From positions 1 to 35,404 of the forward strand of contig RFJU01000040.1 in assembly GCA_003694805.1 (NCBI GenBank): 35,404 bases of DNA. The letters run 5' to 3'. Each line of letters starts with the position of its first letter. The stretch's first letter is position 1. Under the pieces are notes generated by a model. That model saw only the letters and a program-made list of their open reading frames with translations. It was not told the origin of the DNA and did not search any database. This DNA comes from Candidatus Woesearchaeota archaeon (lineage in GTDB: Archaea; Nanobdellota; Nanobdellia; Woesearchaeales; J110). The position numbers and the translations under genes were made by a program. Below, in pieces: positions 14,401-35,404 of the stretch.

Positions 14401-16492
14401 TCCTGTTCCCCACCGTGCTTTCTGCGGTGGTGGTGCTGGAGGTGCGCAGCACGTTGAGTTTGAGCGTGCTTCCTGTGCCGAGTTCGACAAGGCAGTCCGA
14501 GGTGATAACGCCATCTTGCACTGACGTGCTGCCGCGCGTATATGTTGACCCCCAGCATTGAGGCTGGAGGGTTCCGTTAACGTAGATTCGGGCATTGTCT
14601 TCGATGCGTCCCGACCCTGCTTGTCTCACGGCAACGCCGTAGCTGACGCGGTACACGCCGGGCGTGTTGATGGTAATCGTGCTCGTTCCAAGCGTGTGGT
14701 TGAATGCCGGGTCAATGCGGTCTTGCGTGTCCCAGGTAATGTCGGTTCCTGATGTTTGGTCGGCGGTTGACTGGCCTCCAGCGGCGTCTCGGAGCTGGAG
14801 GATGCCCGTTGCGCTGGCGTAGTTCTTTGCGTATTGAACGTCGTTTCCAAACGTGAATCTGAGCACGTGAACGCCTCTTGTTTTGACGGTTGATACTTCC
14901 TTTCCCGTTTCGTTGCAGGAGTAGTGAGGAATGATGACTTTGCCGTTGCTCCAGGTGTAGTTCCTTATCGTGTCGCCGCAGGTTACTTGAAGAAAGGAGA
15001 GGTCGATGCCGACGGGGTCGAGCTGGCCTGGCTGGTGCTGCACCCAGGTGGTTCCGTTTGACGCTTCTATGGTGAGGGTTGCATCTCCAATGGTGGTGAA
15101 GCGCACGGTCCAGTTCCCCCCTACGGTAGGGTAGCTTTGGACGTTGATGATGGTGAGATTTGTCTCTGCAAATGCAGGGTCAGTTGCGTTAAAAGAAATG
15201 GTGTACGGCATTCCCGGCGTTATGTCTTTGACGTAGCGCCACGTTCCCGAGCAGGTTTGAGCAGTGAAGTTCCACTCAGTGCATTTCCACAGCTGGGTTC
15301 CTGTAGCGTTCTGTTCGATGGTGCCGTTGGTAAAGTTGATATGGGTCGGGTCGATGGCGAAGGCGTGAAGAGCGCTCCTTCCCTTGATTCGAGGTTTTTT
15401 TGTGAGGTCTTCTGCTCCGAGAAGAATGCGTTGGGGGAGGATGACGCCGTTGAGGGTGATGCGTTGGGTTCGGGAGAGGGGCCTAGGTATGCTGATGTCG
15501 TACACTCCTTTAAGCGCTGTGAGGTTTTTCGGTGTTGTCGTTACGAAGGTTTCAGTGCTCCTTTCTGCCCCTCGTGCGTGTTCGCGTGTTTGCATATTTG
15601 TTCGTGCAGGTATGTTCGTTTGTTCGCGTTGCGCAAGCGGCGTTGCTGGGCGGATGAATAGTGTTGGCGGTTCGGTCTCGACACGCGCCCTCTGTTCGCC
15701 TTGCTGCTTATTTGTTGGCGTGTTCTGTTTTGGAACGCCGTTGCTGACGAGAAGAAGTGTCGGTTCCCCGTCTGCAGCGCTTTGTCTGGGCGGGGGCGTT
15801 GTTGTTTTTTGTTCTGCCGTGGGAGCGTTTGGCTGATGTGTTGTTGAATGATTCGTTTCTGGTTGATTGTGGTGTGTTTGATTGTTTGTTTGGTTGCTCG
15901 GTGTTGGAAGGTGTGTATTGTTGTTACTTTGTTGTTCTTGTTGCGTTTGGTTTAGCGGCGCTTTTCGTGGTGTTTTTCGTGGTGTTTTGTTGTTTGTGGG
16001 GTCGGTGTTGTTTGCTGACGATGCAGTGATGGTTTTCGTTGCGAGGGTTTCTCTGGTTTGGGCGTTGAGGAGATAGAAGGTGTGCTTGCCCGGGTTTGTC
16101 GGGATGAACGTGAGGGGGAGGGTTGCCTGGTTGCTGTCTGGCCGGAAGCGAAGGAGGGTTGTGGGGGTTTGGACTTCTATGAGTAGATTGGTCGTGTCTA
16201 TTGTGCCTGTTGCGGCGGGCATTGCTGTTGTAGTGTTTGCAGGCGCCCTTTGGACGGCTGGCACGAGATTGATGGTGATGTTTTGCCCGACCAGCACAGT
16301 TTTTGGTGTTATGTGGAGTTCGAGTTCCCCGTTACTGCTCTGCGCCGTCGGGGCGAGGAAGGTCGCGGCTAGGATGATGGCTGCTATGATGAGTGCTGCT
16401 GCGATGTGAAGGTAGAGCGGCGTGAAGAGAGGGAGGTGTGCAGCGAAATTGCCTTGCCTGTTGTCTTTGTTCTTGTCGTCGGTGCTGTTCAT
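5426..16492 (-). CDS. Giant modular surface protein with C1q-like, FN3, Ig-like and DUF2341 modules (3688 aa)
   Basis: Exported adhesin-like protein; ligand unknown. The only membrane segment is near the N-terminus (25-47), acting as signal peptide or signal anchor. Order: beta domain 50-155; Asn/Gln/Thr/Pro linker 155-320; Cys-paired module 400-445 (LWKCTEWNF); three C1q/TNF-like jelly rolls 560-704, 706-848 and 855-1002; Ig-like 1010-1104; two near-identical FN3-like domains 1108-1195 and 1202-1289; Ig-like domains 1294-1485; DUF2341 1554-1662; lectin-like block 1668-1962; a run of Ig-like domains 2030-2790; DUF2341 2844-2950 with LamG-like 2955-3145; Ig-like 3213-3402; FN3 3405-3475; a C-terminal domain 3490-3688 with a GYW-type motif (MDPARGYVLDA). 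Sequons are abundant, for example four in residues 2151-2200. Its ATG overlaps the RHH stop (ATGA) and is preceded by GGGAGG, a strong ribosome binding site five bases before the start. The frame is unbroken. Confidence 0.9.
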   Translation of the reverse strand: MNSTDDKNKDNRQGNFAAHLPLFTPLYLHIAAALIIAAIILAATFLAPTAQSSNGELELHITPKTVLVGQNITINLVPAVQRAPANTTTAMPAATGTIDTTNLLIEVQTPTTLLRFRPDSNQATLPLTFIPTNPGKHTFYLLNAQTRETLATKTITASSANNTDPTNNKTPRKTPRKAPLNQTQQEQQSNNNTHLPTPSNQTNNQTHHNQPETNHSTTHQPNAPTAEQKTTTPPPRQSAADGEPTLLLVSNGVPKQNTPTNKQQGEQRARVETEPPTLFIRPATPLAQREQTNIPARTNMQTREHARGAERSTETFVTTTPKNLTALKGVYDISIPRPLSRTQRITLNGVILPQRILLGAEDLTKKPRIKGRSALHAFAIDPTHINFTNGTIEQNATGTQLWKCTEWNFTAQTCSGTWRYVKDITPGMPYTISFNATDPAFAETNLTIINVQSYPTVGGNWTVRFTTIGDATLTIEASNGTTWVQHQPGQLDPVGIDLSFLQVTCGDTIRNYTWSNGKVIIPHYSCNETGKEVSTVKTRGVHVLRFTFGNDVQYAKNYASATGILQLRDAAGGQSTADQTSGTDITWDTQDRIDPAFNHTLGTSTITINTPGVYRVSYGVAVRQAGSGRIEDNARIYVNGTLQPQCWGSTYTRGSTSVQDGVITSDCLVELGTGSTLKLNVLRTSSTTTAESTVGNRTWLHLQLVKDADVFLAHDAGGGQDMDQVAGTILTWDTQDRADSPFQFTPDANNVTVTQPGLYRITYGIATEHATTTRYAAYGAVLINDTLAPVGYSHVNLRGTDSTQNGVVTADALVELGAGATIKIRGGRASASSVNAVTTPDRSWLHIERIPDQDQKVVMVRESAGGQSLDTTVGTDITWDTTQREDAFFNKTSASTIRIEKSGLYRVAYNVYNNRQLGDPGVTQRIEIGGNLRVNGADQTVCWSQGYNRGDQGTPDSFEGANFASCLLNLSAGDNITVYLRRTSSASAALRTTGNRTWWYIQALDAINTPPTTTLNTPLNDTLLNTATVDFNFTPTDNDTTSFTCTLYGNFSGAWGPNETTTATNNTETNITTTLNDGTYQWNIVCQDLDGATDWGDQNRTLTIDTKPPTISSVNATSITDTTAFITWTTDEPANSTVHYGTTTSLGNTTTDSALVTAHGVPLSGLQPNTLYYYNVTSCDAAGNCNTSGTYNFTTTSEPDTTPPTITNVNATPEETTADVTWTTDEPANSTVHYGTTPSLGNTSSSTSFVTDHVITLTGLTPLVLYYYNVTSCDAAGNCNTSGTYNFTTVDFSPPSVTLHTPPDASTTNLTPGLTFSAMDNVAGVLPSCSLYHNATGNFTLNTTLYNITQGQNYTFNNSFLPGTYTWNVLCEDNQNNTGFTAQNKTFTAQDQDIIVTLLTPPDDYVSSSLTVTYNCSATDDYGLTNISLYLNTSGSWEENQTTSVSGTQATASFTVDMPVGFFTWNCKATDTFGNSFFSSSNRTLYADNRSLILTQELSDTVVKPGTRITINGSLFMSDNQNIGNNELAITLNESPLNPTDENETTLGLRNIIPAWWRVTYKYRTPINITNNDASNPLQEGTTVNVTVNTQSLTAAGKLLANGSDLRVVYWNGSENIELDRINTTPFNTTATVILFRLQANISPSASDSNYSLYYGNPNAGAPPSTPHRVYLPLETKRIINATGTWQDVTLNATYHNPVIVAQVEEVAAPTQEVSVRIANVTSNSFQLKLQNPGDRVFSPRNVSVFIIEAGRLETMDGTTLLEAHRFQESQVLGSSTSTPTTYDTLSFFHTYPSAPAVIGQVMSYQDPLWVDNHINAPGTTSVQVALEMGQYCDQGASFCPNAEGHEPEELGIIVWERTTGNLSGTPFEAAGTSDTILGIDNAPSCWFFTFTQAFTHTPLAVADLDRRDGIDGGWSPTCGISTASIGLHVEEEDESDGERGHTTESATYLAIGGEGTFTVKRYVATPPSTTSGSEEQRPAKTNEQGTYTYNYTTPLAEGTYNITTAATYLFFSAANTSFLIVDNTSPFVNITSITPNPSELGIENVEVNWTATDPTLAEAYLNVTYPNGTLLGTYTTNSTLFTPANLTVKGIYTLTLFAKDGADNTNTTQAFLTVQDTTPPSITLLEPDNDTWVLTSTPTFIYYPSDHDALQNCTLYGNFTGAWGPNETDTSPTNNANNTFTTTIADGAYEWNVQCIDAEGNAGFATTNFTFRLDTTPPAVQLKSPLNNTKENTTNNIVFTYNTTDVMTGVASCILIIDGAQSGPADTTITEGINQTFNAFVANGQHNWSVNCTDQNGFVGSSPTYNLTVEVLSESDPPLVTLYYPPSPAYFSVDTVLFNYTPDDATGIANCSIFLDGQLNQTDTNVTNHAMNNFTITAIAEGDHQWNITCYDNLTNAKGDSETRNLTIDLTNPSIALNTPLNDTFITTSTVVFNYTPQDTNLANCTLYADFTGAWGPNETDTAPTNAAPNTFTKMLQDGPYLWNVLCMDRSRRSGFAPANYTAKVDTAPPIFGAQATNPATPATYSPSQQYTFNITINEPFVDTVLFEHNFTGTFQNETVTTHTGSEYTFTHGPIAAGTYAYRWHANDSLGRSNTTPWNNYTVNKATTAISLLFNGTEDDISIVEDQTVNITALLQTPSTGELELYQDGALINNGTAPLTNITTYALPGTYNITALYRETQNYTSATVTHFITVNDTRAPTITLLFPDENATVGKATVTFRYNVSDQGTIQNCSIYINGTLNQTDTTVQPGSLQTFTITFADGSYNWRVDCYDTASNYATSETRNFSVLDSTLINLTVTTPTQAYEQGQTIPITINTTDRFSNPLATNASTAIIYTNTTTTTIPWWNENFTYRKRITITNNEASELTRGYTVNLTLDTTGPKMQDNGTDVRIVYYNQTNHSLTELDRINTTPFNTTTTTLRFKLQASINASGSDSNYFLYYGNPNAGTPPEDPSNVYLFYDDFEDGDINGWQDHTTPGLRFALDSGNGVLLKTTNSDPGGGYATLPANITNYETTFLSKRINENGGSANRYGILTDTGNGYGPRYESYGTATPLYIEERTGFSATTVASSTSITLPSNTWHHWTFRKIGQSMNFTIRETNGTLIQSVSGSDPTFANTNFTRFQIMGGYEYYTDNIMVRFLVANEPSTTLAAEQELYQHNRTQTDGITGLSAISFGTNLSLPQGNYSIVTLAYRPDFNNADDATYITLGPDQTPPNTTLQAPANDSFVGNTTVTFTYTPSELNVLDTCTLYGNFTGTWSPNETDTSPTNNANNTFTITIADGTYLWNVQCNDSLGNAAFSPANYTVNVDTTPPTIQLNEPANNSNQSSPVTFNWTVSDNLATNLTCVLLINGTQNGSQEPAQEGIPTTTTRNLTTSGTTSWQINCTDEANNTGSSQPYQFFHLTPPTNITIDYINAAATLNWTPPPGAVTYNVYITNNYSQGRPPNPNASNIPDTNYTDQNASQIQQRYYWVSAVRGTAEAIAPVPVGKYTVSLTGNLSLLSFPLTPSTTRLRNATEGLILRTTPDCVLSLWRYTSSGYERTDWNGTEFVPAAGSENFTVIDTNTSYWLEKNTSCNITFVGTVPTQNETIALYSGITFAGWHTILNQTLPTNYQDPLFTTTPANALQAIDRYNSDTNTFEVTIHYDVGSTPWGWWPSANNPDFTTMDPARGYVLDAVKNATWTFDPKT
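6664..6751 (-). repeat. Near-identical Ig-module repeat, copy A
   Basis: This stretch matches 9946-10033 almost perfectly: 6664-6717 (54 nt) is identical to 9946-9999, and the next 34 nt differ at two or three positions. It encodes part of the GNFTGxWxPNETDTSPTNN Ig-like module. Conservation at synonymous positions points to a recent duplication or gene conversion inside the 3688-aa gene. Confidence 0.7.
7574..7617 (-). repeat. 44-nt stretch identical between the two giant genes, copy in the 3688-aa gene
   Basis: These 44 bases recur exactly at 23933-23976 in the other giant gene. Both encode FYDDFEDGDINGWQ, the start of the LamG-like domain that follows a DUF2341 module. The surrounding protein regions are also similar (both end with GGYEYYTD), so the DUF2341-LamG pair was probably copied between the genes. 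Confidence 0.7.
9946..10033 (-). repeat. Near-identical Ig-module repeat, copy B
   Basis: Partner of the repeat at 6664-6751. It encodes the Ig-like module carrying NFTGAWGPNETDTSPTNN around residue 2160 of the 3688-aa protein. More diverged relatives of the same motif occur near 9100 and 13310. Confidence 0.7.
12626..12700 (-). repeat. FN3 unit repeat, copy B (75 nt identical)
   Basis: These 75 bases are identical to 12908-12982, exactly 282 bp (94 codons) away. A second identical block of 47 nt (12783-12829 and 13065-13111) has the same 282-bp offset. Together they mark a tandem FN3-like unit in the 3688-aa gene that duplicated recently or is being homogenised. Encoded motifs are DEPANSTVHYGTT and YYYNVTSCDAAGNCNTSG. 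Confidence 0.85.
12908..12982 (-). repeat. FN3 unit repeat, copy A (75 nt identical)
   Basis: Partner of 12626-12700. It encodes the C-terminal strands of the first FN3-like domain (around residues 1171-1195). The central part of each unit differs between the copies (for example VTAHGVPLSGLQPNT against VTDHVITLTGLTPLV), so exact identity is confined to two blocks. Confidence 0.85.
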
Positions 16493-16740
16493 GGTTTCCT
16501 CCCTCGAACGCCTCGTTTCGTTTTTGTGCCGGAATGGTGTTTTGTGCTCGCGGGAATGCTGTGTCGAACGGGAGAATCGTGTTTGGGTGCGCGCGCTTCT
16601 TCTGCTGCCACTGCGTTGATGAACTCTTGCATCATGAGTTCTACTTTAGAAGAAACTTTCATCGCGTTTGCTTTGCAGATGCGTTTGAAGGCGAGAAAGG
16701 TGTCGCCGTCAATAGTCATGGTGACTTTCTGTTTTCCCAT
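16489..16740 (-). CDS. Ribbon-helix-helix DNA-binding protein, putative operon regulator (83 aa)
   Basis: Small transcription regulator of the RHH (CopG/Arc-like) fold, by pattern. A short beta strand (KQKVTMTID, residues 3-11) would pair in a dimer and insert into the DNA major groove. Helix A covers about 12-28 and helix B about 30-46 (SSKVELMMQEFINAVA). The C-terminal half (50-83) is a basic, probably disordered tail rich in Lys, Arg, His and Ser, which could add non-specific DNA contact. The stop overlaps the start of the 3688-aa gene as ATGA, so the regulator and the giant are probably translated in a coupled way. The promoter upstream carries a perfect inverted repeat around its TATA box, suggesting autoregulation. 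I chose the ATG at 16740; an in-frame TTG at 16788 would add 16 residues that do not fit the fold. No assigned target is known. Confidence 0.75.
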   Translation of the reverse strand: MGKQKVTMTIDGDTFLAFKRICKANAMKVSSKVELMMQEFINAVAAEEARAPKHDSPVRHSIPASTKHHSGTKTKRGVRGRKP

Positions 16741-16797
16741 GCTGTCGTCTCTGGCTTTCTTTTGGTTTTTCAGGCCTTCAAACCTCAAAAAACCAAC

Positions 16798-16829
16798 AAA
16801 ACCATATTTTTATGTATTTATATGGTTTT
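16798..16829 (-). promoter_or_regulatory. Promoter of the RHH-giant operon with overlapping inverted-repeat operator
   Basis: The minus strand has a TATA box CCATATAAATA at 16815-16825, about 80 nt before the RHH ATG. Two perfect 10-bp arms, AAAACCATAT (16798-16807) and ATATGGTTTT (16820-16829), flank a 12-bp spacer and cover the TATA box. Further AAAACC (16789-16794) and GGTTTT (16831-16836) half-sites lie just outside. Repeated short half-sites of this kind suit RHH dimers. Binding here would block TBP, so negative autoregulation is the natural inference. Confidence 0.6.
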
Positions 16830-16848
16830 CGGTTTTGTGACGGGTTGC

Positions 16849-16866
16849 CAAAACAAGCAAAAAAGG
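16849..16866 (-). terminator. T-tract terminator of the 5905-aa gene
   Basis: Just after the stop codon (16880-16882) the minus strand reads CCTTTTTTGCTTGTTTTGG. Such T-runs end transcription in archaea without needing a hairpin. It separates the first giant gene from the RHH operon promoter immediately downstream. Confidence 0.5.
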
Positions 16867-16879
16867 CGCAAGAGCTTCG

Positions 16880-19800
16880 CTAGGGAATCTCTGTGTAGAA
16901 CACAACCCTGTCGTCAGTGCCGGTGTAGTTCCGCAAGGAAGCAGGAACGCGTATTTCGTAGTCAAAGATGCCGCCGAAGCCCGGCTTGTCCTCATTGACC
17001 TGCGTTATGAAGACGATGTCCTGCGTGCCGTTGTAAGAAGCGCCGCCGTCGCTCGTGTCCCATAAGATTCCTGTTTGGAAGTCGGAAGAGTTTGTTGAAT
17101 TCGCGACGGGGACGGTGGTGATGAGACGGTCAAACACTGTCATGTCTTTCGTTGCTACAGGGCTGCCCGCAACGGTGTAGGTGTTCTCCACCGAGTCGGT
17201 CAGGCCCGTGCTGCCAAAGTGCACATCGATGTCGGTGAAGTCGTCGTCGACCGTGTTGTTGTCAACGTCGAGACCAATCGCCTGGAAGCTGGTAAAGTTT
17301 AGGACGCTGTCAATGTCCGCTACGATGATATTGGAGGATGTTGCGTTCGTGACATTCCAGGTGAAGAGGTTCTCGATGTTTCTGTCGTGGACGACGAGCT
17401 TGTCGTCTGTTTGACCGCCGAAGAAGTTCCAAAAGCCTACAACGAGGGTGTTGCTTGCTTTGTTGTTGGTTTCGTCACCTTCTGCAATGGTATTGTCCGG
17501 GTCAACGACGAGATAGATGGTGTTCAGGCCGAGCTGGGCAATGAAGGTGTCGTTGATGGTGACATTGCCTCCCGCGGTGATGTTGAAGGTGTGGTTTTGC
17601 CCGATAGGCGTTCCTCCGGCGTCAGGGTCTCCCCGGTAGAATCTTGCAAGAACGTTGGTGAAGTTCGTCCCGCCAATGTTCCATATGGTGCCAAACACAG
17701 TGACTGACGAGTTCTCAACAGCAGAGGTGGTGTTGAACGTGACGCTTGAGCCGTTCACCATCAAGTCTTTGTCAATAACCGAGAACTGCCACGTGGCGGA
17801 GGTGTTGGCGTTCCCTGCTTGGTCCGCGCACGTGACGTTCCACGTGTGAAGACCGCTGGCGAGGTCGTAAATAGTCGTGTTGGCGGGCTGGCCCGACTGT
17901 GCTTGAATGCCTGTTTGGTTGACCTGGCCATCAAGGGTGAGGTTACACACGAGCTGGCTTGCATGATCGTCGGTTGCGGTCCAGTTAAAGAAGACGTCCG
18001 TCGTAGTGAGCGTGGAGTCGTTAAGAGGGTAGTGAAGGTCTACCGTTGGGGAACTTCCATCGAAGTAGAGCGTTTGACTGTCTTGGTACGTGCTCCCGAT
18101 GTAGTAGAAGAGTTCTGGCTGGTTGAAGATGCGGCAACTGAACGCCTCACTGCCCGAGTAGGCAGAGCCATCAATGGTGAGGGTGGCAAGGCCCTGAGCG
18201 TCTGTCGTGGCACTGCCTAGTGATGCGGTGCTATTGTAAAAGTAAACAGGGTAGTTTGCGAGCGGTTCTTGCGTGTCTTCATCAGTAACGTTACAGACGA
18301 GGTCGATGGTTGCTTGTGGAACGTCTCCTATGGGGGCGTGCCAGGAAATGGTACTCGTCCCGGTGAGGTTGAACTCAAGGTAGGGGAGGTCGTTATTCGT
18401 GTTGTTGCTGAGGTCCTGCGCAGTGATTTTTGCTACGTGCGTACCTACGAGCCATGAGAAGTTCGTGGCGAAGGTGTAGTTCGTCCAGTTGTTCGTGTAC
18501 GGCGGGGGGATGGTGTCGTTCTCAATGGCGGGGGTGGTAGCGTTGAAGAAGACGGTCGCGTTCTGGATGGTCTCATCCCAACGTGCGTAGATGGTCGTGT
18601 TCCCTCCTCGCTTAAATTGGGTTTGGGTGAGGTTGTACTCGAGTGCCTGTGGAGGGGTAATGTCTGATCCAGGGGGGAGGGTGTTGAGTTGTTCCGAAGC
18701 TTGAGTCGGGGGCGTGACGTTGTAGTACAGGGGTGCAGAGTCGGTAATGTTACAAACGATTGTTTCAAGCCCTGTTGAGTTGTCCGTGAAATTCAAGCTC
18801 GCCCATCCTGAGCTGTTGGTTGCGGCCGTGCCGAGCTCTCCTGTGCTGTTGTAAAAGCTCACCAGCATGCCCGTAACGGGAGCTTGGCTGGCGTTGTCAA
18901 GAACGCGGCAGCTCATAGTCGTCGTGTTCCCTTGAATGATGCTGCTCGGGTCGAGGTTGCTTTCTGAAATGTAAGCGTACCCCCACACCTCGATGGAGCC
19001 CAAGGGTGTCTGGTTCGTATTCCCGCTCGTGTCGTTGCCGTAAATAATCCAGCTCTGAAGGCCGAGTTGGGCATCGGCGGGGTATTGTACCGTAAAGTTC
19101 GACCAGCTCTGCGTTCCTGAAAGCTTCATTGGTGCAGAGAGCGAGTCGTTCGTGAGCGTTCCTGTGTCCTCCGTTGCGAGCCTGGCGTAATCGAGTGCGT
19201 AGTTGTCATGCCAGAGGGCGTAGAAGGTTACGTTCTCGAGCTTGTGAATCACCGTTGCCGACTGGCCGACGTTGTCCGCGTAGGGAACGCCGAATTCTTT
19301 TGTTGTCAGGTTTTGTTTGAGTTCGTTTTGCGCTGAAACGTTGTCGTATGATGCCAAGTCGCTGGTGATGTTACACGTAATTTCTTCAACGCCCGGGGAG
19401 GTGTCGTTGTAGGCGTAGACGGCCCAGCCGGTTGCGTTGGTTGTGTTCGTTCCTAAGAACGCAGTGGCGTTGTAGAACGAGACGAGGTAGTTTTGTGCAG
19501 GTTGTCCTCCTTCATCGACAACTTGGCATCCGATGATGACTGTTGATGAAATATTGGCCGGGTTGGGATTGAGGAAGGAGTCGTTAAGGCTGAGCTGGCG
19601 GTACACGTCGAAGAAGAGGTATTGCAGTGAGTTGTTGATATTGCTGACGAGGTCGTAGGCGTAGAGCTTCACTGCGTGGCGGCCCTTGAGCCATGAGCTG
19701 TTAGTTATGATAGTGTGATTGGTCCAGTTGTTCGTGTAGGGTGGATTGACGGTGTAGTTTTCTAGTGAAGGCGTGGTCGTGTTGTACTCGGCAATTGCTG

Positions 19801-28800: not shown

Positions 28801-31800
28801 TGACGATTTTTCCCTTGGTGAATTCTGTTCCGTTCGTGTCAATGGAGAGCGTGACGAAAAGACTGACGTTGAAGGGGGTGATTGCGCTTGAGCCGAGATT
28901 GCCGAGTGAGTCGGTGCAGTTGACTTGCCAGGTGTGGTTGCCGTTGGTCAGGCCTGGCACGGTATAATTTGTTGGTGTTCCGGTGGTGCTGTTGATGTTT
29001 GCTTGTTGAACGGCTCCGTCAACGATGAGGTCGCAGAGCGCCCATGCTTGAGCGTCGTTGGCGGTCCAGTTGAAATTGACTGTGCTGCTGTAGACGACTT
29101 CTTGGCTGGAAGGGTAGTGTTGCGTGATGGTCGGTCCGTCGTTGTCGACGGTGAGGTTGCTGGTGTTTGTGGCTTCTTTGTTCGCGAAGGTAACGTTTAC
29201 CGTGACGGCATAGGTGCCGCTCGTCGTTGGGGAGGAGAAGGTATAATTGTAGTTTCCTTGCCCGTCGGTTTGGAAGAGACTTTCTACTGTTTCCTGTGTG
29301 AAGGAGGGTGTTTCGTTGGTGAGGTTGACCACTACCGACCAGATGGCTACGTCATCGTAAATGACTTCGCCACCGATTGCGGTGTCGTCGTCGTTGAAGT
29401 AGTGGATTGCGTCAACGGGGGCGTACCCGCCGTTGTCCGTGTTCCAGTCGCTTCCGATGGGAATGGCAAAGACGCGCCACTGGTTTGTTGAGGTTGAGTG
29501 GTAGCGCTCGATGTCTTCTGTCCAGTCTCCGCAGGAGCCGCCGCTCCACTGGCAACCTGCCATGATGTAATTAAGCTCGGTTGTTCCGGTGTTGTCGCTG
29601 CTGTTGTCAAGGCCGATGCCTTCGATTTCTCCTTCTGAGGGGATGTACATGCGCACCGTCATGGTGGTGTTCTCTGTGAGGGAGATCGGGGTGATGTCTT
29701 CGCGTTTCCACGTGTTGCCGAAGATGTGAAATGACCTTGACCCTTCCGCGTAAATGGAGGTGTTGTATTGCCAGTTGCTAGGCTCGATGTCTTGTGCTCC
29801 TGCAACGCCTTGGTAGCTGGTGAACGTCGTGCTTTCTTCAAAGCCGTTGTGATGGAGGCGGAGGACTGGGTAGCCAGGGTCTTGTTTGGTTCCGTGGTTT
29901 GTGGTGTCAAAGTAGAGGTAGTACGTACGGGTTGCCGTGTTTGTGCCGTTGGCCACCCAGATGATGTCCGCATAGGCGTTGGTTGTTTCGTTGTAGGTGT
30001 TTTTCGGCTCGAATTGGGATGGCACCTCTCCAAGGATTGTTTGGCCGGAGTACTCGATTACGCGTACTGAGTTGTTATCAAAGCTTCCTGTAATGCCTTT
30101 TTTTGCGAGTTCTTCGGTGAAGTTTACTGTTTGGATGACGGGGTAGTCATTAATGTTTGCACTGGAGAAATCGATTGTGATTTTGATGCGGTAGTTCCAT
30201 GAGTAATTCCACCACGGGTCCGCGTGGACGTTTTGAGCGATGAGGTTGCTCTCGTTGAGGGGGACGCCGTCGATCGTGATGGTTAGCGTTGCGTTGGTTG
30301 CGTTTGAGCCGTCGGTAAGCGATGCTTTACCAGTAACGGTTACGTTGTCGCCTCCGAAGGTTATGCTTGGCGTGAGGGTTTCCGTTATGCTTAGATTCCG
30401 CGTGTCAAGGGTGAACGTCCCGTTCTCGCTGGCAAAAGAGAGCGAGTTGTTATCTGCTGCGGCGCACGTCCAGAGGTACGTTCCGTCAGTAAGGGAGGTT
30501 ACTGTGAATGATGCGTTCGCTGAGGTGTCATTTGTTCCAGGAAAGGTTTGTGTCTGGCTGGGTTGGAGTGTTCCTGAAGTGTTGAGGTAGAGCGTGATGT
30601 TCACGATGTCATTGTTGTCGGTTGCGGAGCAGTTAAGCGTAAACGGCTCTTGTTCGATGAAGGCAGAATTGGAAGGGGCGTCGAGCGACACAATGGGAGG
30701 GAAGTCTTCTTCCTTCCAGGTGAAATTGACTGAGGTGATTGCTATGGCTTGCCTCGCTGGCGAGGTGTAGTTGGCGACGAAGAGGAAGCTTCTTCCAGGC
30801 GTGAAGGAAGGATAGGATGTTGAGTTTATCTCGACGCCTTGTTGGGCGGCGTGGTAGGTGGCTCCTCCATCAACACTTACCCAGAGGGTTATGTTGTTTT
30901 GTGCATCGGTGTTGTTCGTTGTCCATTCTGGCGTGATTGCCGAGATGTAGTTGGTTGTGTTGATGCGTGTTGATATGACGCGGCCTGTTTTTGGTCCGAG
31001 GCTGCTGAGCGTCACGTTGTCAAAGCGTGCGTCGCTCATTCCCCACGAGTAGAGAGCGATTGATCCCGCTGCGTGGGCCGTGTCCGTGGCGTTGAGGACA
31101 AGGGTGCCGTCGAGGTAAACTTCGATGGTGTTTCCTTCTGCAATAACGGTGACGGTATGCCAAGCGTTTTGTGTGAGGCCGCCATCTGTGAGCGTGTCAG
31201 AATCGAGTACGGTAACTGAGTCGTTTACTACTTTTTCGAGGCGTCGGTAGTTGCTCGTTCCTTCGAAGCGGACTCGGTAGTAGTTTGTCTGGTTAACGTA
31301 GCGGAACATGAGGCCCATGCCGTCGTTGTCGCCGGCGTAGAGCTTGGCGGTGAGGTTGAAGTTGGTTACGTTGATGCCTTGCGCGTATTGGTATGTTCCT
31401 TTCGCGATGGTGTCCCTGTTCCCGACGGCGTCGTAGGCATTTCCTGTTTCTGCAAAGTATCCTCCTGTCAGGACCCAGAGGGGTGTGTTATCCGCTACGC
31501 CTTCATTCACTTCCACCCACGTGACAGGCGAGCCGTCAGTGGTGCTCCCGTCAGCGAAGGTTTCATTGAAGAGAAGCGTTATCGTTCCGGAAAACGTCAG
31601 CGATCCTGGTGTGAATGTCACGTTCGTGCTCGAGGCTATGCTGGAATTGTCAGGGTATGCGTCGTAGTAGCTTTTGTTCATGTCAACGGTGAAAGAAGAC
31701 GTATTTGATGCGAGGTTGCCTGCAGTGTCGTTGGCGTACACGGTGAGGGTGTAGCTCCCTTCCGCTTCAACGTCTTCGAAGACGAAGCCGTCCGTGCAGG

Positions 31801-34597
31801 CGGTGCAGAGTGTTTTGTTTGTTCCGCCATTAACGCTGTACCAAGCATTGACCGTTTCGGAGAAGCTTGCGTTGATGGTCGGTGTTGAATCTTTTACAAG
31901 TCCTTGGGGAGTGTGGATGGTAATGACGGGAAAGGTCGTATCGACGATGAAGGTGTAGTTGTTCGTGGCGAAGCTGCTGTTGCTTTCGTTGTTGACTGCG
32001 AAGCAGTTCCAGATGTAAACGCCTTCTGTTAGGTTGGTGAGCGTGAACGTTGCGGAGACATTGGTATCAGACGAGCCGGAAAATGTTTGTGTCTGGTTTG
32101 CCTGCCACGAGCCGGTGATGTTGTGGTAGAGGGTGATGTTGATAATGTCCTGACCCGCGAGGCTTTCAGCTGAGCAGTTGAACGTCACGCTCCCTCCTTG
32201 TTGGCTTGACGCGTTGGGAGGCGTGTTGAGAGTGACGAGGGGAACTTTGGCGTTGTAGTAGATTTCTTCTCCTAAAGAAAGCGTTGGCTCCTTGGACGCT
32301 GCTTCCCTGAGGATGATGTTGCTAAACCAGCCGTCGGGAACATCGGGCGGGGGGCCGTTGTCGTCGGCGTCTTCGTCGCTTCCAAAGGTGAGGTACGAGT
32401 AGCTCCCCGTCACCATGTCTGCACTGACGTTGATGACGTAATGCGTCCAGTTTGGGCTTGTGTAGTTGTGGTATGTTTGGAAGCCGAAAACTTGCGTTCC
32501 GTAGAGCTGAAAGAATCGGTTGCTTGAGAGTGAGGCGGTCTGCGTTTCTAGGCCGATGCCGTTGATTTCTTGTTCTTCGCTTCCGTTGTAGCGATTGCGA
32601 AAGTCCAGTTCGAGGATGGTGCTGGTCGTGACGGTGTAAGGGTAGTTGAGCGCTTTCCAGCTGTTTCCGTAGAGGTGGAGGGTCCTGTCTGTGAGGTTGT
32701 TCGACGTTGAGTCGACGTCTTGAGCGGTGCCGCCGTAGCTGGAGAGGGTGTAGGCGGAGAGGTTGAGAATGACGCTGGCGTTCTCTGGCGGATTGCTTGC
32801 TGAGGGGTTGCCATAGTAGATGAAGTAGCTATAGTTCTCTGCTGTGAGTGGTGTTTGTGTACGAAACCACACTCTTGTTGCGGTCGTGTTTGGGTCGATA
32901 ATTTCCCTGTTGATTTCGTTCCAAGTTGCGCTGGAGTCGTTGTACCAGAGGACGCGCAGGTCGTCAAGGTCTGCTCTTGCTTTTCCTTGCGACACGAGCG
33001 CTTGCGTGTTGAGGACGAGCTTGACCGGGTATCCTTGACTGAGCCCTTCTGTTGCGATGTTGCTTATGTTGATTTGGCGGCGGTAGGTGTAGTCGTTGTT
33101 CCACCAAGGGAGGGATTCTCCAAAGGCAGGGTCTTGGGGCGTGATTGTTATGGTGTACGTTTCTCCTGGGGTGAGGCTTCGTTGTTTTTCCCAGGTTGAC
33201 TCGCACGTTGCGGTTTGGAAGTTCCACGCGGTGCATTTGTAGAGAGCGTTTCCTTTGGCGGTCCTGGTGAGTGTTGCGGTGGTGTACGTGAGTTGTGAGG
33301 GGTCAAGTGCGAGAAGGTTCGTGAGGCGTTCGCCTTTCGCGAAGACGACGTGCTGGTCTTCGTCAAGGTAGAGCTTTGCCTGAGGGTTGTGTTCGAGGGA
33401 TGCGAACGTGAGTGTCTGGAATGCCCCCTTCGTGGGAAGAATTTCGAGATCGTAGCGCTCTCCTGGAGTGAGTTGTGTGGGGGAGATGGTGTGCCCGGCT
33501 TTTTTGTAGCGCATCTGGAGGGGTTCTGGCTCGAAGCTGGCGAGGGGCGGCGTGGCACGAGTGGGTTGCGTGGGCAGTGTTGGCTTCCTTGGCGTTTTCT
33601 GGAATGGCTGGGTTGGTTGGTTGCTGTTGCTTGGCTGGGGTGTTGATGGTTGTTGTGGTGTTCTGTGCGGCTGGGTTGTTTCCAGAGCAGGGTTGTTGCG
33701 CGTCTCTTTGGCGGACGTTTCTTTGGCGGTTTTGGCAGGGTTTGGGAGGACGGTTATGTTTGTTTGTTCAAGGAGGTGGTTTCCGAGACGGAGTTCGAGT
33801 TCGTAGAGAGCGGGCTCTTCGGGGTAGAGGGTGATTGGTTCGTTGAGGTCGCCGAGGTAGCGCTGATAGGTGTTGTTTGTCTTCAGAATCAGCGTTGCTT
33901 GTGGCGGGGCTCTCGCTACGGTTATGGTAATGGGGTTTCCCGTGGTGGTCGCGAGCGGTTCGACGAGGAGGTGAGCGTTGGCGTGTTGAGTTTGGCCGTT
34001 CGCTTGGGTGCTTTGGCTTGAGCTGTTTGTGCGGAGCTGTGTTGCGTTTGTGACGGTGAAGGTGTGGCGTTCGAGTTCGCGTCCTGAGCTGTCTTCTATG
34101 ATGAGTTGGTACGCGCCTGGTTCGGGAGGGTTGAAGAGTGTTGTTGTGTTGGGGCTTCCCGTGTAGCGAAGGACGTTCTCGCCGTGGATGATTTTAATAC
34201 GGGTTGTAGAGGGGAGGTCGTGGAGGTTTACCCGGACAAGTTCTCCTTGGGTGAAGACGGTTTTTTCGAGGCGTGTAAAGCTCGCTGCGGGGGGGATGAA
34301 GAAGAGCGGGCTTGCGATGAGGGCGATGATGATGAGGGGGAGTATTTTGGTGGTGATGTTCTTGAAGACGAGTGTCTTGAATAGGCGCGAGTGGTTGGTA
34401 GTGGGGGTTAACGTGGCGCGTGGGGTTTGTGTTGGTTTGGTTGCTTGATGCCTTGATGGAGGTTTCTTCGTGGCAGTGCGTTCTCGGCGCTTCTTTGTTT
34501 TCTCCCTAGTCGTGCTCCTTGCCGCTGTTTTTTTGCGTGGAGGACGTATTGAAGAGGAGCTTCCTCGTCTTGTAGATTTTACGTGCTGTGCGCTCAT
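16880..34597 (-). CDS. Giant modular surface protein with six DUF2341 modules (5905 aa)
   Basis: Very large adhesin-like envelope protein; ligand unknown. An ~80-residue highly basic N-terminal tail precedes one hydrophobic segment (83-104). Order: two beta domains 105-290; Pro/Thr linker 290-350; Cys-paired module 450-495 (LYKCTAWNF); DUF2341 modules near 497-602, 1460-1565, 1962-2066, 2629-2732, 3422-3530 and 4126-4233, each opening WWN or WFN then YR. Partner modules: GNxWK sugar-binding-like 610-770 and 1585-1755; LamG/TSP-C-like 1005-1200; IgGFc-binding-like blocks 2078-2440, 2745-3105 and 4240-4635; LamG-like 3533-3730. Ig-like domains lie between. Three ~200-residue repeats fill 4898-5500, then an Ig-like domain, CARDB 5618-5720 and a C-terminal domain 5725-5905 (TGILWDTSDGG, DYEIRVPASLRNY). 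No C-terminal anchor or sorting motif is visible. No clear ribosome binding site precedes the ATG; an upstream 31-codon frame overlaps it by ATGA. The frame is unbroken over 17.7 kb. Confidence 0.9.
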   Translation of the reverse strand: MSAQHVKSTRRGSSSSIRPPRKKTAARSTTREKTKKRRERTATKKPPSRHQATKPTQTPRATLTPTTNHSRLFKTLVFKNITTKILPLIIIALIASPLFFIPPAASFTRLEKTVFTQGELVRVNLHDLPSTTRIKIIHGENVLRYTGSPNTTTLFNPPEPGAYQLIIEDSSGRELERHTFTVTNATQLRTNSSSQSTQANGQTQHANAHLLVEPLATTTGNPITITVARAPPQATLILKTNNTYQRYLGDLNEPITLYPEEPALYELELRLGNHLLEQTNITVLPNPAKTAKETSAKETRNNPALETTQPHRTPQQPSTPQPSNSNQPTQPFQKTPRKPTLPTQPTRATPPLASFEPEPLQMRYKKAGHTISPTQLTPGERYDLEILPTKGAFQTLTFASLEHNPQAKLYLDEDQHVVFAKGERLTNLLALDPSQLTYTTATLTRTAKGNALYKCTAWNFQTATCESTWEKQRSLTPGETYTITITPQDPAFGESLPWWNNDYTYRRQINISNIATEGLSQGYPVKLVLNTQALVSQGKARADLDDLRVLWYNDSSATWNEINREIIDPNTTATRVWFRTQTPLTAENYSYFIYYGNPSASNPPENASVILNLSAYTLSSYGGTAQDVDSTSNNLTDRTLHLYGNSWKALNYPYTVTTSTILELDFRNRYNGSEEQEINGIGLETQTASLSSNRFFQLYGTQVFGFQTYHNYTSPNWTHYVINVSADMVTGSYSYLTFGSDEDADDNGPPPDVPDGWFSNIILREAASKEPTLSLGEEIYYNAKVPLVTLNTPPNASSQQGGSVTFNCSAESLAGQDIINITLYHNITGSWQANQTQTFSGSSDTNVSATFTLTNLTEGVYIWNCFAVNNESNSSFATNNYTFIVDTTFPVITIHTPQGLVKDSTPTINASFSETVNAWYSVNGGTNKTLCTACTDGFVFEDVEAEGSYTLTVYANDTAGNLASNTSSFTVDMNKSYYDAYPDNSSIASSTNVTFTPGSLTFSGTITLLFNETFADGSTTDGSPVTWVEVNEGVADNTPLWVLTGGYFAETGNAYDAVGNRDTIAKGTYQYAQGINVTNFNLTAKLYAGDNDGMGLMFRYVNQTNYYRVRFEGTSNYRRLEKVVNDSVTVLDSDTLTDGGLTQNAWHTVTVIAEGNTIEVYLDGTLVLNATDTAHAAGSIALYSWGMSDARFDNVTLSSLGPKTGRVISTRINTTNYISAITPEWTTNNTDAQNNITLWVSVDGGATYHAAQQGVEINSTSYPSFTPGRSFLFVANYTSPARQAIAITSVNFTWKEEDFPPIVSLDAPSNSAFIEQEPFTLNCSATDNNDIVNITLYLNTSGTLQPSQTQTFPGTNDTSANASFTVTSLTDGTYLWTCAAADNNSLSFASENGTFTLDTRNLSITETLTPSITFGGDNVTVTGKASLTDGSNATNATLTITIDGVPLNESNLIAQNVHADPWWNYSWNYRIKITIDFSSANINDYPVIQTVNFTEELAKKGITGSFDNNSVRVIEYSGQTILGEVPSQFEPKNTYNETTNAYADIIWVANGTNTATRTYYLYFDTTNHGTKQDPGYPVLRLHHNGFEESTTFTSYQGVAGAQDIEPSNWQYNTSIYAEGSRSFHIFGNTWKREDITPISLTENTTMTVRMYIPSEGEIEGIGLDNSSDNTGTTELNYIMAGCQWSGGSCGDWTEDIERYHSTSTNQWRVFAIPIGSDWNTDNGGYAPVDAIHYFNDDDTAIGGEVIYDDVAIWSVVVNLTNETPSFTQETVESLFQTDGQGNYNYTFSSPTTSGTYAVTVNVTFANKEATNTSNLTVDNDGPTITQHYPSSQEVVYSSTVNFNWTANDAQAWALCDLIVDGAVQQANINSTTGTPTNYTVPGLTNGNHTWQVNCTDSLGNLGSSAITPFNVSLFVTLSIDTNGTEFTKGKIVNITINLTNQGGDVVNATVHTKVIKATYEFDWWNENWTYRTPVTIQENSGNNLTEYQVNVTIDTQALISSGKLNSDCSDLRAVDSSGNLLDFYIEENPTYTCNTSATTIWVKASALNASTTSYLFLYYGNPSATTSQSLMNETFSYSTKQSIYYVVDSFAATTSTVSVTPFYNGTSVQAGTTSLSLNKGDVGLISNTQLTQAGAITTDKPVQPTHDGEGDALVPISFAGTTFVYRIDRSSGSNVNTFHILAPFNDTSVQIFYGTNWGTLLESHNITKGNVVSTTTDTPNNVAVLISASAPVLVFHVESGQGDDAFPFYPATTDWWGVPSGSIEIAALENGTTATIYWSDTATPTTVSLDAGDEHISGGHGTQGSAPAAHVVSNKPIGVKQIADGDGTESVTFLPESELAKEYVFSHDSSYVAIAATQPDTSCTIYSSTGTLLFSGTGGSNARPRPNQILFGDGAGPDIPAGSFLNCSAPVYAYAEYDTGDEEQNLWNPKQHRKLAWPAPSVATDSEEELLYTNDNDTGATGFIIPHNTSLYDFGTFFAWSESLPSPDTNDTAKNHTSWKVIDDSAPIIENLTATPDPVGFGYTTNLSADVTDETGIASVTFNITKPDGTTLSVTPTYAGGNTYWYVFNDTWTYGDHTFLVSATDVSTQTSTANTTFFVGADAAMSVVTLQDGYGPNEVVYLVGKEDNSTWWNQNYAYRKSINLTEQSGTNLGEFHVSITLDTQALQAQNKLRGDCADVRFTDANQTEIPYYRLDVPAYACGTNQTLFFVKTNLSANENKTIYLYYNYPAAIDASSESATFNFTTNQSLFFVVSNQTPLGNLDVVSFADNNTITHNAASLTLDESKTGSFTTPARGPISANSAFFAAGDADATDAAAPLLFAAQEFAVSSSRGTDRWSIYSPYNDSTVCFYNGDGTSLTLISSCVNVPQGTTADVERDLNSLSASNSNGGYINATAPVIITHRAQSGTSIYDAYVLPPPGRRLYGVPGTDFQVAAAQDNTNVNVYLSNGTTYTFTLNQGSGKHFDVGDNYGQGPAYYVEADKPVWAVQIADGNGGEATTFLPDLYLANTYAIPHGYDYITISAPNETTCTLYDTNGNLVDQATASRTGTGKSPYKILFSARTSGAGDTIRCDKPVWVAYQEAATNDEKNALGQALYRKIPTTPPLQTEGGVEARPSESTLKNVGAYSFKGYLVMQTEYYTGGSWQRSGLPVVDDLATSNERTFTPGSILYLNQTWADGGAWDTALNPSGTYRVAARLYDPDGNLLNISTSEYFMATYNFSILSPNLTIENITHENLYEHAINEFEVEDILDWVNVTARNENATALNTSIYLRILNPDQTPAGWGPDSEKNCGDLAPGATCTKQWNNASNGYYIPFDAATGTYNMLWETTFSGTNFQDKTSSNFTFKLHRLTDEFSATINPGKVNKNDSAIYEFGMVNLWSKNLTDLNVSINCPQAPGITCTCLNTTLPYCNLTSLEGSSQEDPWFNNTWQYRTKINLTNNEASTLQAGYSVNVTIDTATLYSAGKVQLDCDDVRIVWKNTTSGELKELDRHLSTACNSATSTFWFKLQEDIPATSSDQHYYVYYGNPSVGPGPENYSNVYFFYDDFEDGDINGWQNYSSGVVQHTTTGGDNVILKTASNDPNGGYRTFPSTIDDFEVTFNFNRPNENGGAQSRYAISNSAFSGYGFRITDVNPSGTFAIEERNAGSSAGDIASTSTTYFNLNTWYHIRHRKLGSTHNITVFNSTGGYLDSLEASDLTVTSGFDRFVIHGGYEYYTDDIIVRHLVTNEPTASTLGEESRDSAVQGSWFPQFNITTNDSTPIGVYTISVNVTYTNPGLETKLWTNQQPLTLQVSAPGLIAVNITSNYTKVTRTIPYDFSGFANNTNGADALNAELTWHLPQGWQVTAGSLTTTDPVLTSGERLWNNATFTPNTTSTLGTQQINLTANSTNVEGEIDAIILEVWAGMNVTLQANDTNPERNQTILLNATVLLDNGTPQGSRTVAFRDETDNLLIGSNTTDANGVAYLYYTIPETASFGAHLFNASVTSQPSKYYDAGSGTQNITIRQATSFNNITASPNPAGIGIPVTITANVSDADGIANVTITITYPNGTSVTDTMQENSGLYTYTFNDTWQLLYYNYTITVEDNTSDNTTSSPKTFLVTTQADIRVDTEQANYSQNEQVNLTGYQQPWWNESYQYRTPFNLTSSYTGQIEPNFTVMIEIDTQSLLSAHKVRADGSDLRVVWLNATNNQSVELDRVVLDFNTTTTQVWFKTPAAFTGTGANYYLYYGNENATNPPQNIEPFTYYTRMDGNTVNGNGGDLILIPYYDNTTYTITGGVSASGTLNKDQTYQNFNLPGTDNTYTITSSKPLSVFVGVLEGSNPNAWTTVMPKRMNSSGTDFRVWSYTSSGQSNIGALWIVALENNTAYEVRRTSDDTLLHNGTLNQGELFKDSTTGANETYSVTLSKPGFIVAGKADTPTSRDAQRWWVGQNGTKRDTVIWGISNNNNGLRIYNPNNAYVTADIIDVTDGTDTINAISIPPLSSHYQVLTTNDHVLKIVADNPVLVDDKYLSNANRQGDSGDYVPEADQGHMVGTRFYVHATGGSIGQQMAAVWPLFDNTAVYQNGVLLTTIATAGTPYTFNPPLDATVNITSDKPILFLFFTEESGTDYTFSVPEASSAWGGRPKTSFGEEEQAISRIRNTLAYPFRGVLFLEVQFNSSEGWITEEVIVDDAANGTVRTVQDYNILNLADIWLANGAFNTLTREDGLYRVYAAFKDVHGNVIVTNNGTPLNATAEFNILPSRVNLDMNVIKIYDVTNATNQKTDTSVLHDTGLNDTFILYTNHTYRVEFYVNTLSNSDNWTINESNVTHAGLNSTWPIDEQNNIFYRIGEVDYTGGAYTGGNVTWNTSNGGVVQPLSTVAFDYIINMTDQGLGFYPVHFSVQGSDFGEEDFSTFRLVGYETDPPGLVNSIYNITKTSIIRGQNTTVYALWDEEILTAIAEYNTTTPSLENYTVNPPYTNNWTNHTIITNSSWLKGRHAVKLYAYDLVSNINNSLQYLFFDVYRQLSLNDSFLNPNPANISSTVIIGCQVVDEGGQPAQNYLVSFYNATAFLGTNTTNATGWAVYAYNDTSPGVEEITCNITSDLASYDNVSAQNELKQNLTTKEFGVPYADNVGQSATVIHKLENVTFYALWHDNYALDYARLATEDTGTLTNDSLSAPMKLSGTQSWSNFTVQYPADAQLGLQSWIIYGNDTSGNTNQTPLGSIEVWGYAYISESNLDPSSIIQGNTTTMSCRVLDNASQAPVTGMLVSFYNSTGELGTAATNSSGWASLNFTDNSTGLETIVCNITDSAPLYYNVTPPTQASEQLNTLPPGSDITPPQALEYNLTQTQFKRGGNTTIYARWDETIQNATVFFNATTPAIENDTIPPPYTNNWTNYTFATNFSWLVGTHVAKITAQDLSNNTNNDLPYLEFNLTGTSTISWHAPIGDVPQATIDLVCNVTDEDTQEPLANYPVYFYNSTASLGSATTDAQGLATLTIDGSAYSGSEAFSCRIFNQPELFYYIGSTYQDSQTLYFDGSSPTVDLHYPLNDSTLTTTDVFFNWTATDDHASQLVCNLTLDGQVNQTGIQAQSGQPANTTIYDLASGLHTWNVTCADQAGNANTSATWQFSVIDKDLMVNGSSVTFNTTSAVENSSVTVFGTIWNIGGTNFTNVLARFYRGDPDAGGTPIGQNHTFNITAGGNVTINDTFIAQLGLNTIYLVVDPDNTIAEGDETNNKASNTLVVGFWNFFGGQTDDKLVVHDRNIENLFTWNVTNATSSNIIVADIDSVLNFTSFQAIGLDVDNNTVDDDFTDIDVHFGSTGLTDSVENTYTVAGSPVATKDMTVFDRLITTVPVANSTNSSDFQTGILWDTSDGGASYNGTQDIVFITQVNEDKPGFGGIFDYEIRVPASLRNYTGTDDRVVFYTEIP
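18128..19906 (-). repeat. Three protein-level tandem repeats (~200 aa each) in the 5905-aa gene
   Basis: Residues about 4898-5085, 5100-5290 and 5310-5495 share one plan. Each starts with a beta domain containing NxTxYAxW and ends with a Big_1-like domain carrying SFYN or YFYN, then LGT/LGS, then a GWA/GLA turn and a Cys pair. Copies 1 and 3 also share PPYTNNWTN. The DNA has diverged, so this duplication is older than the FN3 pair in the other giant. Confidence 0.75.
23933..23976 (-). repeat. 44-nt stretch identical between the two giant genes, copy in the 5905-aa gene
   Basis: Partner of 7574-7617. It lies at the junction between the fifth DUF2341 module and its LamG-like domain (around residues 3542-3555) of the 5905-aa protein. 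Confidence 0.7.
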
Positions 34598-34689
34598 GGT
34601 TTCTTTATTGTCGTGGTTTTCTTTATTGTTCTCCGCGACGTGTTTTCATGGTGCTTCATGGTGTTTTTCATGTTTGAGTTTTTTTTCAT
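34594..34689 (-). CDS. Possible 31-codon upstream ORF coupled to the 5905-aa gene
   Basis: A short frame begins with ATG at 34689 and has further in-frame ATGs at 34671 and 34659. Its TGA stop overlaps the giant's ATG as ATGA. The peptide is rich in Lys, Thr, Asn and Arg (ending TIKKTTTIKKP), with no recognisable domain. No Shine-Dalgarno sequence precedes any of the three ATGs, and none precedes the giant's own ATG. Termination-reinitiation from this frame is one way the giant could be translated, mirroring the RHH-giant ATGA overlap. The region is A-rich and repetitive, so the frame could be fortuitous. Confidence 0.3.
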   Translation of the reverse strand: MKKNSNMKNTMKHHENTSRRTIKKTTTIKKP

Positions 34690-34740
34690 TGATTTTTCAT
34701 TGATGTTGTATTTCTTCGTGTTGTAATTCTTGTTAATCTC
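34598..34740 (-). promoter_or_regulatory. Repeat-rich leader between the winged-helix gene and the 5905-aa gene
   Basis: These 143 bp hold three pairs of short direct repeats (plus-strand reading): GGTTTCTTTATTGT (34598-34611) with GGTTTTCTTTATTGT (34615-34629); TTCATGGTG at 34645 and 34655, 10 bp apart; and a tandem 11-mer TTTTTCATTGA at 34682 and 34693. No convincing TATA box or terminator T-run is visible on the minus strand, so the giant may be read through from the winged-helix promoter. The repeats could be operator half-sites. Confidence 0.4.
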
Positions 34741-35325
34741 TTACTGCCAGGTAATCGTTGCGTGGCGTTGGGCGAGTACGGGTATGATTTCTGAGAGGAA
34801 GGTGTAGTAGTTCTCATATCCTGCGAGGAGGAGGGGGTGCTTGTATTCCGCATATTGTTTGATGAGTGTTTGTTGCCAAGAGGTTTTGGTGTGAAATTGC
34901 AGTGTTTTTCCAAGAATTTTTGATGGTGTGCTGGCTGCGTCCTCAAGTCGTGGGAGAATGACGATAATGCGGTCTTTGTGAAGCAGGGCGGTAAGGATTG
35001 GTGTTGGCGTGTGGAGTTTGTTAAGTTCTTCTCTCAGAAGGGCGGCTTCTGTTTTTTTCTTAGAAGGCAGTGTTTGGAGGCGTTCGATGGCATTTCTAGC
35101 GAGAAGGTTGCGGGAGAGCGGGTTTTGGAGGTTGATGGAGCAGAGATGGGCTCTTCCCACGACAGCCCAGCGAACCACGCCTTGTTCTCGAAGAGAATGT
35201 ATTGTTTTGTTAATGTGGGGGTATGCTTTGTTGAGGTTCTTCGAGATTTGGTGGATGCTGTATGCTTTGACGAGGTCTTGTGCGAAGAGCCCGACGAGCT
35301 CTTGCTCCAGTCGTTGCTTTGCCAC
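34741..35325 (-). CDS. Winged-helix transcription regulator with degenerate C-terminal domain (194 aa)
   Basis: Putative cytoplasmic DNA-binding regulator. Residues 1-75 fit a winged helix-turn-helix: helices around 3-20, a helix-turn-helix at 23-48 (IHQISKNLNKAYPHINKTIHSL), then a beta wing (GVVRWAVVGRAHLCSIN). Residues 90-194 are an alpha/beta region with LLHKDRIIVILPRLED and a final HPLLLAGYENYYTFL. This layout resembles archaeal wHTH proteins carrying a nucleotidyltransferase-like domain, but the GSxxxG and DxD active-site residues are missing, so it would be inactive; this comparison is inference. Translation starts at a GTG, supported by GGTGAGGG about nine bases upstream and a strong TATA box. 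It is the first gene of a unit that probably includes the 5905-aa gene, which begins 143 bp downstream. Confidence 0.75.
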   Translation of the reverse strand: MAKQRLEQELVGLFAQDLVKAYSIHQISKNLNKAYPHINKTIHSLREQGVVRWAVVGRAHLCSINLQNPLSRNLLARNAIERLQTLPSKKKTEAALLREELNKLHTPTPILTALLHKDRIIVILPRLEDAASTPSKILGKTLQFHTKTSWQQTLIKQYAEYKHPLLLAGYENYYTFLSEIIPVLAQRHATITWQ

Positions 35326-35395: not shown

Positions 35396-35404
35396 ACATT
35401 TGTA

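Follow-up and report, generated by a model that had tools for sequence, protein, structure and literature searches.

Candidate regulator-first operons for giant, predicted surface proteins of Woesearchaeota, and putative private operators at their promoters

Operons whose first gene encodes a regulator of the operon's own promoter are, as such, already known. The AbiE type IV toxin-antitoxin operon begins with a gene for AbiEi, a winged helix-turn-helix (wHTH) protein with a second domain; AbiEi binds inverted repeats in the operon's promoter and acts as a repressor of that operon (PMC3985639). In the archaeal CdrS-ftsZ2 system, CdrS controls cell division and is reported to be absent from DPANN, and the promoter is bound by a separate ribbon-helix-helix (RHH) protein, CdrL (PMC7439475). 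For DPANN, a report on nanohaloarchaea describes giant, membrane-anchored surface proteins rich in immunoglobulin-like (Ig) domains, termed 'SPEARE', with a proposed role in host binding (PMC10266531). The subject here is a 35,404-nucleotide stretch of DNA from a Candidatus Woesearchaeota archaeon (termed the window; it makes up the whole of contig C40 in a genome of 1.21 Mb that is 96% complete), in which two genes for giant, predicted exported proteins, giant 1 and giant 2, each stand behind a small gene for a putative DNA-binding protein.

Comparisons among genomes of the same order point, with considerable confidence, to regulator-first, autoregulated operons, that is, to an arrangement in which a small DNA-binding gene heads each giant and a private operator lies at that gene's own promoter; each leading regulator probably controls that promoter. 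An earlier note, made from the window's sequence, had proposed that a small regulator leads each of the two giants, and this proved correct: a wHTH gene (P0001) precedes the 5905-residue gene of giant 1, and an RHH gene (P0002) overlaps the 3688-residue gene of giant 2, the stop codon of the former and the start codon of the latter sharing the letters ATGA at 16489-16492. A gap of 143 nt, without an obvious TATA box, lies between P0001 and giant 1. All genes of the cluster are on the minus strand.

Linkage was checked in 353 genomes of the order Woesearchaeota, using profiles built from relatives because either window regulator is hardly recognised by Pfam alone. Relatives of the wHTH protein (E <1e-8) occur in 144 of these genomes, and regions of about 20 kb were inspected for 40 of them. 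In each of the 27 homologues scoring above 140 bits, the next gene encodes an N-terminal hydrophobic segment and usually overlaps the regulator gene (by -4 nt); about 16 of these next genes encode giants, of 2319 to more than 6112 residues. The full-length wHTH-led giants share a C-terminus, [YF]D[FY]E[IM]x[VI]PAxLRxY...FYxE, like that conserved in giant 1 (FDYEIRVPASLRNY...FYTEI), and the linkage spans dozens of genera. Left out of the 27 were matches below about 130 bits, which are largely pairs of wHTH-nucleotidyltransferase (NTase) and HEPN genes or lie in other neighborhoods; lower-scoring relatives precede a short transmembrane (TM) protein and a different giant, a secreted pair of 770-1060 residues or, where the NTase motif is intact, HEPN-like genes. 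As for the RHH protein, the 'MKVS[ST]KVEL' group (P0002 and six relatives) precedes secreted open reading frames (ORFs) in 7 of 7 cases, three of them longer than 4500 residues. The whole RHH profile (A2) was ruled out as giant-specific: many of its 'NGMKISTKVE' members are orphans, and only the 'MKVS[S/T]KVEL' group is giant-specific. The earlier note had named unlinked regulators in relatives as the outcome that would count against it; these counts went the other way.

At four loci (L101, L120, L123 and L128), the gene led by a wHTH relative encodes a TM protein of 330-380 residues with a pilin-like N-terminus (KGQVTIFIIIG...); at all of these except L120, a protein of 5000-6000 residues follows, of a type unlike the Ig/DUF2341 giants.

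The reverse comparison began from giants sampled blind to their regulators: giants were taken by DUF2341 or LamG in 155 genomes and their 5' ends inspected, 68 having their start in hand. A small same-strand ORF lies within -75 to +60 nt of 40 of the 68. Pfam assigned these neighbors to HTH/sigma70-r4 (12), phage integrase (5) and DUF6364, an RHH family (3), with single RHH or HTH matches in others; for 100 neighbors of ordinary genes, it gave HTH_5 twice and integrase once among the 25 families listed, a list that hides singletons among the controls. When wHTH and RHH genes missed by Pfam are included, by eye and by profile, about 32 of the 68 giants (47%) have an adjacent DNA-binding gene, versus about 4 of 274 ordinary genes (~1.5%); the Pfam-only minimum against the same ordinary genes is 21 of 68 (Fisher p 8e-13). 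Gene calls were mechanical, and background rates were taken from the inspected regions. At one further locus (L220), a KaiC-like ATPase gene lies 10 nt upstream of the giant, where others carry a DNA-binding gene.

The occurrence of two independent fold families in the same position had led the earlier note to suggest a recurrent design, which turns out to be wider still, inasmuch as at least four families fill this slot in relatives: the wHTH protein with a loop-less NTase-like domain, the RHH protein, a tandem helix-turn-helix (tandem-HTH) protein and a catalytically dead tyrosine recombinase. The tandem-HTH family (Sigma70_r4-like, '...NRDDRTIWTVY...') occurs in 103 of the 155 genomes; 17 of its 27 top matches with room for a following gene stand before a secreted ORF of 480 residues or more (background, 22 of 489), and behind several others lies a shorter gene for a membrane or secreted protein. 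The genome of the window contains a third giant (contig C38, 3818 residues), which overlaps its tandem-HTH leader by 17 nt, and another tandem-HTH gene, which is followed by that of a secreted protein of 247 residues. Among tyrosine-recombinase domains scoring above 115 bits and with room, about 11 of 11 precede a large ORF with a hydrophobic N-terminus; among XerA-like controls, a large ORF follows in 1 of 18, and that ORF lacks a TM segment. Arg-I is lost in 11 of 12 recombinases above 105 bits, and the Tyr nucleophile likewise in 11 of 12; both residues are kept in 18 of 18 XerA-like controls.

Several observations concern these two families. Some promoters at tandem-HTH loci (L258-L287, and L320 and L321 on own contigs C38 and C169) carry repeated, operator-like motifs resembling TTACTTACA or TTACATAATAGTA. 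Secreted proteins of about 240-247 residues follow tandem-HTH genes at five loci (L274, L284, L285, L287 and L321), and that of the window's genome has ...FYAEL at its end, resembling the giants' C-terminus. Dead tyrosine-recombinase domains stand directly before giant secreted genes at L188, L193, L199, L202, L213, L227 and L288-L299, and possible dyads occur at the recombinase-like genes' own promoters (e.g., GTTTCGT...ACGAAAC in L213).

Both window promoters carry dyads with perfect arms (Table 1). The earlier note had placed perfect inverted repeats across the TATA box at both promoters; the arms are perfect in both cases and the RHH dyad encloses its TATA-like box, but the wHTH dyad does not straddle the TATA-like TTTAAATA, which it abuts on the downstream side. 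A strict form of the wHTH dyad, TTATAY-N6-9-RTATAA, is present upstream of 20 of 35 wHTH genes linked to giants or secreted proteins, against a mean of 0.66 and a maximum of 4 of 35 in dinucleotide shuffles. Among the other upstream regions of these loci, the only ones with this pattern belong to two divergent genes using the same promoter. The window's own genome has two sites, one at the window promoter and one at the end of a contig, against none in the control; the match at the contig end (C176:12-32), which precedes a PhoU-like gene, was treated as chance rather than as an operator. The 28-bp form of the RHH dyad, AACCATAT-N3-TACATA-N3-ATATGGTT, has three sites in the 353 genomes (one in the window, the only one in its own genome, and one each in genomes G103 and G332), all directly upstream of an RHH gene of the MKVSS type. 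These three genomes belong to separate families, and the dyad is therefore conserved within otherwise diverged promoters. A degenerate copy lies upstream of the RHH gene of genome G086, and half-sites lie upstream of those of G022, G098 and G260. Other matches to AACCATAT-N8/9-ATATGGTT (in G265, G023 and G282) have no TACATA core and were set aside as chance matches. Because the window dyads are conserved in relatives and almost absent elsewhere, they exceed chance expectation, and these sequence patterns support their assignment as family-specific operators of these regulators, nearly unique in the genome.

Two hairpin-like features were also seen in RHH leaders: downstream of the RHH dyad, the window has a second inverted repeat with 9-bp arms, TTGGTTTTT...AAAAACCAA (16762-16796, minus strand), and the relative at L144 has a different hairpin, TCCTGAAAG-GC-CTTTCAGGA, in its place.

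Table 1. Features of the giant/regulator cluster (window coordinates)
Feature	Coordinates	Strand	Remarks
wHTH dyad (putative operator)	35363..35389	-	ATTATTATA-N9-TATAATAAT, 9-bp perfect arms; spacer TAAAAAAAG
TATA-like box of wHTH promoter	35389..35396	-	TTTAAATA, from sequence
wHTH regulator gene P0001	34741..35325	-	GTG start, 194 aa; winged helix N-terminal, nucleotidyltransferase-like domain C-terminal, without catalytic loop
Giant 1, P0004	16880..34597	-	5905 aa; exported (predicted)
RHH dyad (putative operator)	16798..16829	-	AAAACCATAT-N12-ATATGGTTTT, 10-bp perfect arms; spacer AAATACATAAAA
TATA-like box of RHH promoter	16815..16824	-	CATATAAATA, inside RHH dyad
RHH regulator gene P0002	16489..16740	-	ATG start, 83 aa
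Giant 2, P0003	5426..16492	-	3688 aa; exported (predicted)
Secreted Ig/cadherin-like protein, C-terminal TM	3321..~5378	-	start placed, presumptively, at signal-peptide Met
Secreted Ig-like protein P0006	1501..3336	-	611 aa; overlaps preceding gene (Ig/cadherin-like protein)

The two regulators themselves differ in kind. The AlphaFold2 model of P0001 (pLDDT 90.9) predicts a wHTH fold for its N-terminal part, which matches the winged helices of MarR and ArsR (Foldseek against PDB; prob 1.00, best E 2.9e-3), with no match over the whole chain; Pfam alone gives a weak match (HVO_A0114, E 0.025). The C-terminal domain aligns with the nucleotidyltransferase domain of wHTH-NTase proteins (profile alignment by hhalign; prob 98.2, E 4e-14); its assignment follows from this alignment, and Foldseek, whose matches were dominated by the winged helix, did not confirm it. 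P0001 and its giant-linked relatives lack the segment GSxxKGxAxxSDxDL and, with it, the catalytic GSxxxG...SDxD motif of the minimal nucleotidyltransferases (MNT) of MNT/HEPN systems; no HEPN gene adjoins P0001, its neighbor being giant 1. The domain may thus be a disabled enzyme retained for sensing or dimerisation. P0002 alone has no Pfam match at 0.05, and its sequence matches in PDB to CopG, CcdA and protein 56B are weak (E 0.1-0.3); in its family, 10 of 11 members match DUF6364 and 2 match RHH_5.

Each giant has one N-terminal hydrophobic segment and is for that reason predicted to be exported. Pfam scans find DUF2341, Ig-like, CARDB and 3-keto-disaccharide hydrolase-like domains in giant 1, and Ig-like, fibronectin-like and DUF2341 domains in giant 2. 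Giant 1 and the RHH gene are set apart by T-rich stretches and a new promoter, so that the window likely holds two transcription units here, that of giant 1 and that of the RHH gene and giant 2; the latter is likely to include the Ig/cadherin-like gene as well. Farther along, P0007 (186-1445, minus strand) contains a cytosolic domain, '...SDGxxIRSLxEL...NDFANWI', which recurs beside wHTH-giant loci (L092, L103, L106, L108, L111 and L112); at the last two, a second wHTH copy heads the gene with this domain.

The mechanism suggested by this arrangement is as follows. Each giant would be the second gene of a regulator-first operon, whose first-gene protein would recognise a palindrome specific to its family, which lies in the operon's promoter over the TATA box (RHH) or just downstream of it (wHTH), and whose action there would set transcription both of the regulator and of the giant behind it; the stop/start overlap seen in most relatives, and at giant 2 in the window, would add translational coupling. 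A protein bound at either position could block the TATA-binding protein and transcription factor B (TBP/TFB) or RNA polymerase. Binding to the dyads and repression of the regulators' own operons are proposed because of the analogy with AbiEi (PMC3985639). Such autorepression would keep the operon low and buffered until a signal releases the regulator, so that the output of very large proteins would be inducible. In the wHTH protein, the loop-less NTase-like domain probably serves as the input. More broadly, it is probable that the order shares a convention of placing a dedicated, cis-acting DNA-binding gene before giants, for which unrelated folds, including two enzyme wrecks, have been recruited independently and are interchangeable, each with private operators.

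Several points weigh against this proposal. No regulator adjoins about half of the giants sampled, and the strict wHTH dyad is missing from 15 of the 35 wHTH promoters. The genomes and giants sampled are related, and the counts are not independent. The wHTH gene and giant 1 do not overlap, unlike most of their relatives, and their separation leaves room for an intervening promoter that escaped notice. The position of a site on or close to the TATA box suggests repression rather than activation, without proving it.

The same arrangement might be explained otherwise, if the small genes were mainly translational leaders that deliver ribosomes to a very long mRNA, DNA binding being secondary. Overlaps of -4 to -60 nt are indeed usual in relatives and one exists at giant 2; any short ORF would serve this purpose, however, yet DNA-binding families are strongly enriched, the promoters retain their dyads and the wHTH-giant 1 pair of the window has no overlap, and this explanation is considered unlikely. 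That the regulators act on other genes in trans, the giants being mere neighbors, is very unlikely: archaeal regulators can have wider regulons, but the linkage persists across genera and the full dyads are confined, in the window's own genome, to the sites given above. Bacterial surface proteins are often phase variable, and the earlier note had considered a phase-like control; recombinase-like genes do precede some giants. Nevertheless, no simple repeats occur at the regulator promoters, no invertible element turned up (reads were not screened for inversions) and the recombinase-like regulators have mostly lost Arg-I and the Tyr nucleophile, which makes on-off switching by DNA rearrangement or slippage extremely improbable, and phase variation was dropped as unsupported.

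A further possibility, tentative though not far-fetched, is that regulator and giant form a transferable cassette, in which the regulator serves mainly to silence or tune the giant within a new cell and re-pairing has occurred repeatedly. The RHH-giant unit is patchy, being found in families f1, f2, f21, f23 and f62. Eight or more relatives have a second giant directly or nearly directly behind giant 1 (-4 to +104 nt), with no regulator between, and at this same spot the window carries the RHH unit and the promoter belonging to it; one giant of G086 has a C-terminus of the giant 1 type, normally under a wHTH gene, but is led by an RHH gene. Regulators are therefore exchangeable between giants, consistent with cassette transfer or with repeated recruitment. 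Neither mobility genes nor borders were observed, however, and a cassette is compatible with autoregulated, regulator-first operons rather than exclusive of them.

If the proposed operons are real, their recurrent pairing suggests that a whole order of symbiont-type archaea, the Woesearchaeota, regulates very costly surface proteins in a common way. A role of the giants in host attachment may be suggested by their domain content and by proposals made for other DPANN giants (PMC10266531). They would thus be candidates for the DPANN cell-cell contact apparatus, and their regulators and operators a first handle on its timing; the operators are defined well enough for in vitro tests without culturing the organism. 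In practice, a dedicated giant may be recognised by the small DNA-binding gene that precedes it. Two enzyme families, moreover, appear to have been turned into regulators in parallel.

Among the open papers searched, none described giant surface proteins paired convergently, across a whole order, with private regulators drawn from four or more unrelated families, and the resemblance to described systems is partial in each case. The locus resembles AbiE in having a two-domain wHTH protein as the product of its first gene and inverted repeats at the operon promoter; it differs in that the second gene of AbiE encodes an NTase toxin, whereas here a giant follows and the NTase-like domain, lacking its loop, is fused to the wHTH. 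The wHTH-NTase/HEPN pairs of the same genomes have the same wHTH and a homologous C-terminal domain, but they keep GSxxxG...SDxD and precede HEPN-like genes, whereas the giant-linked wHTH proteins have lost the loop. As in CdrS-ftsZ2, where a small archaeal RHH gene is co-transcribed with the next gene (PMC7439475), co-transcription is predicted for P0002 and giant 2. SPEARE proteins, as described in the available part of that report (PMC10266531), carry a VirB4/TraG-like ATPase domain, and no dedicated upstream regulator turned up there; Pfam scans detect no ATPase in giants 1 and 2, each of which stands behind a putative regulator of its own.

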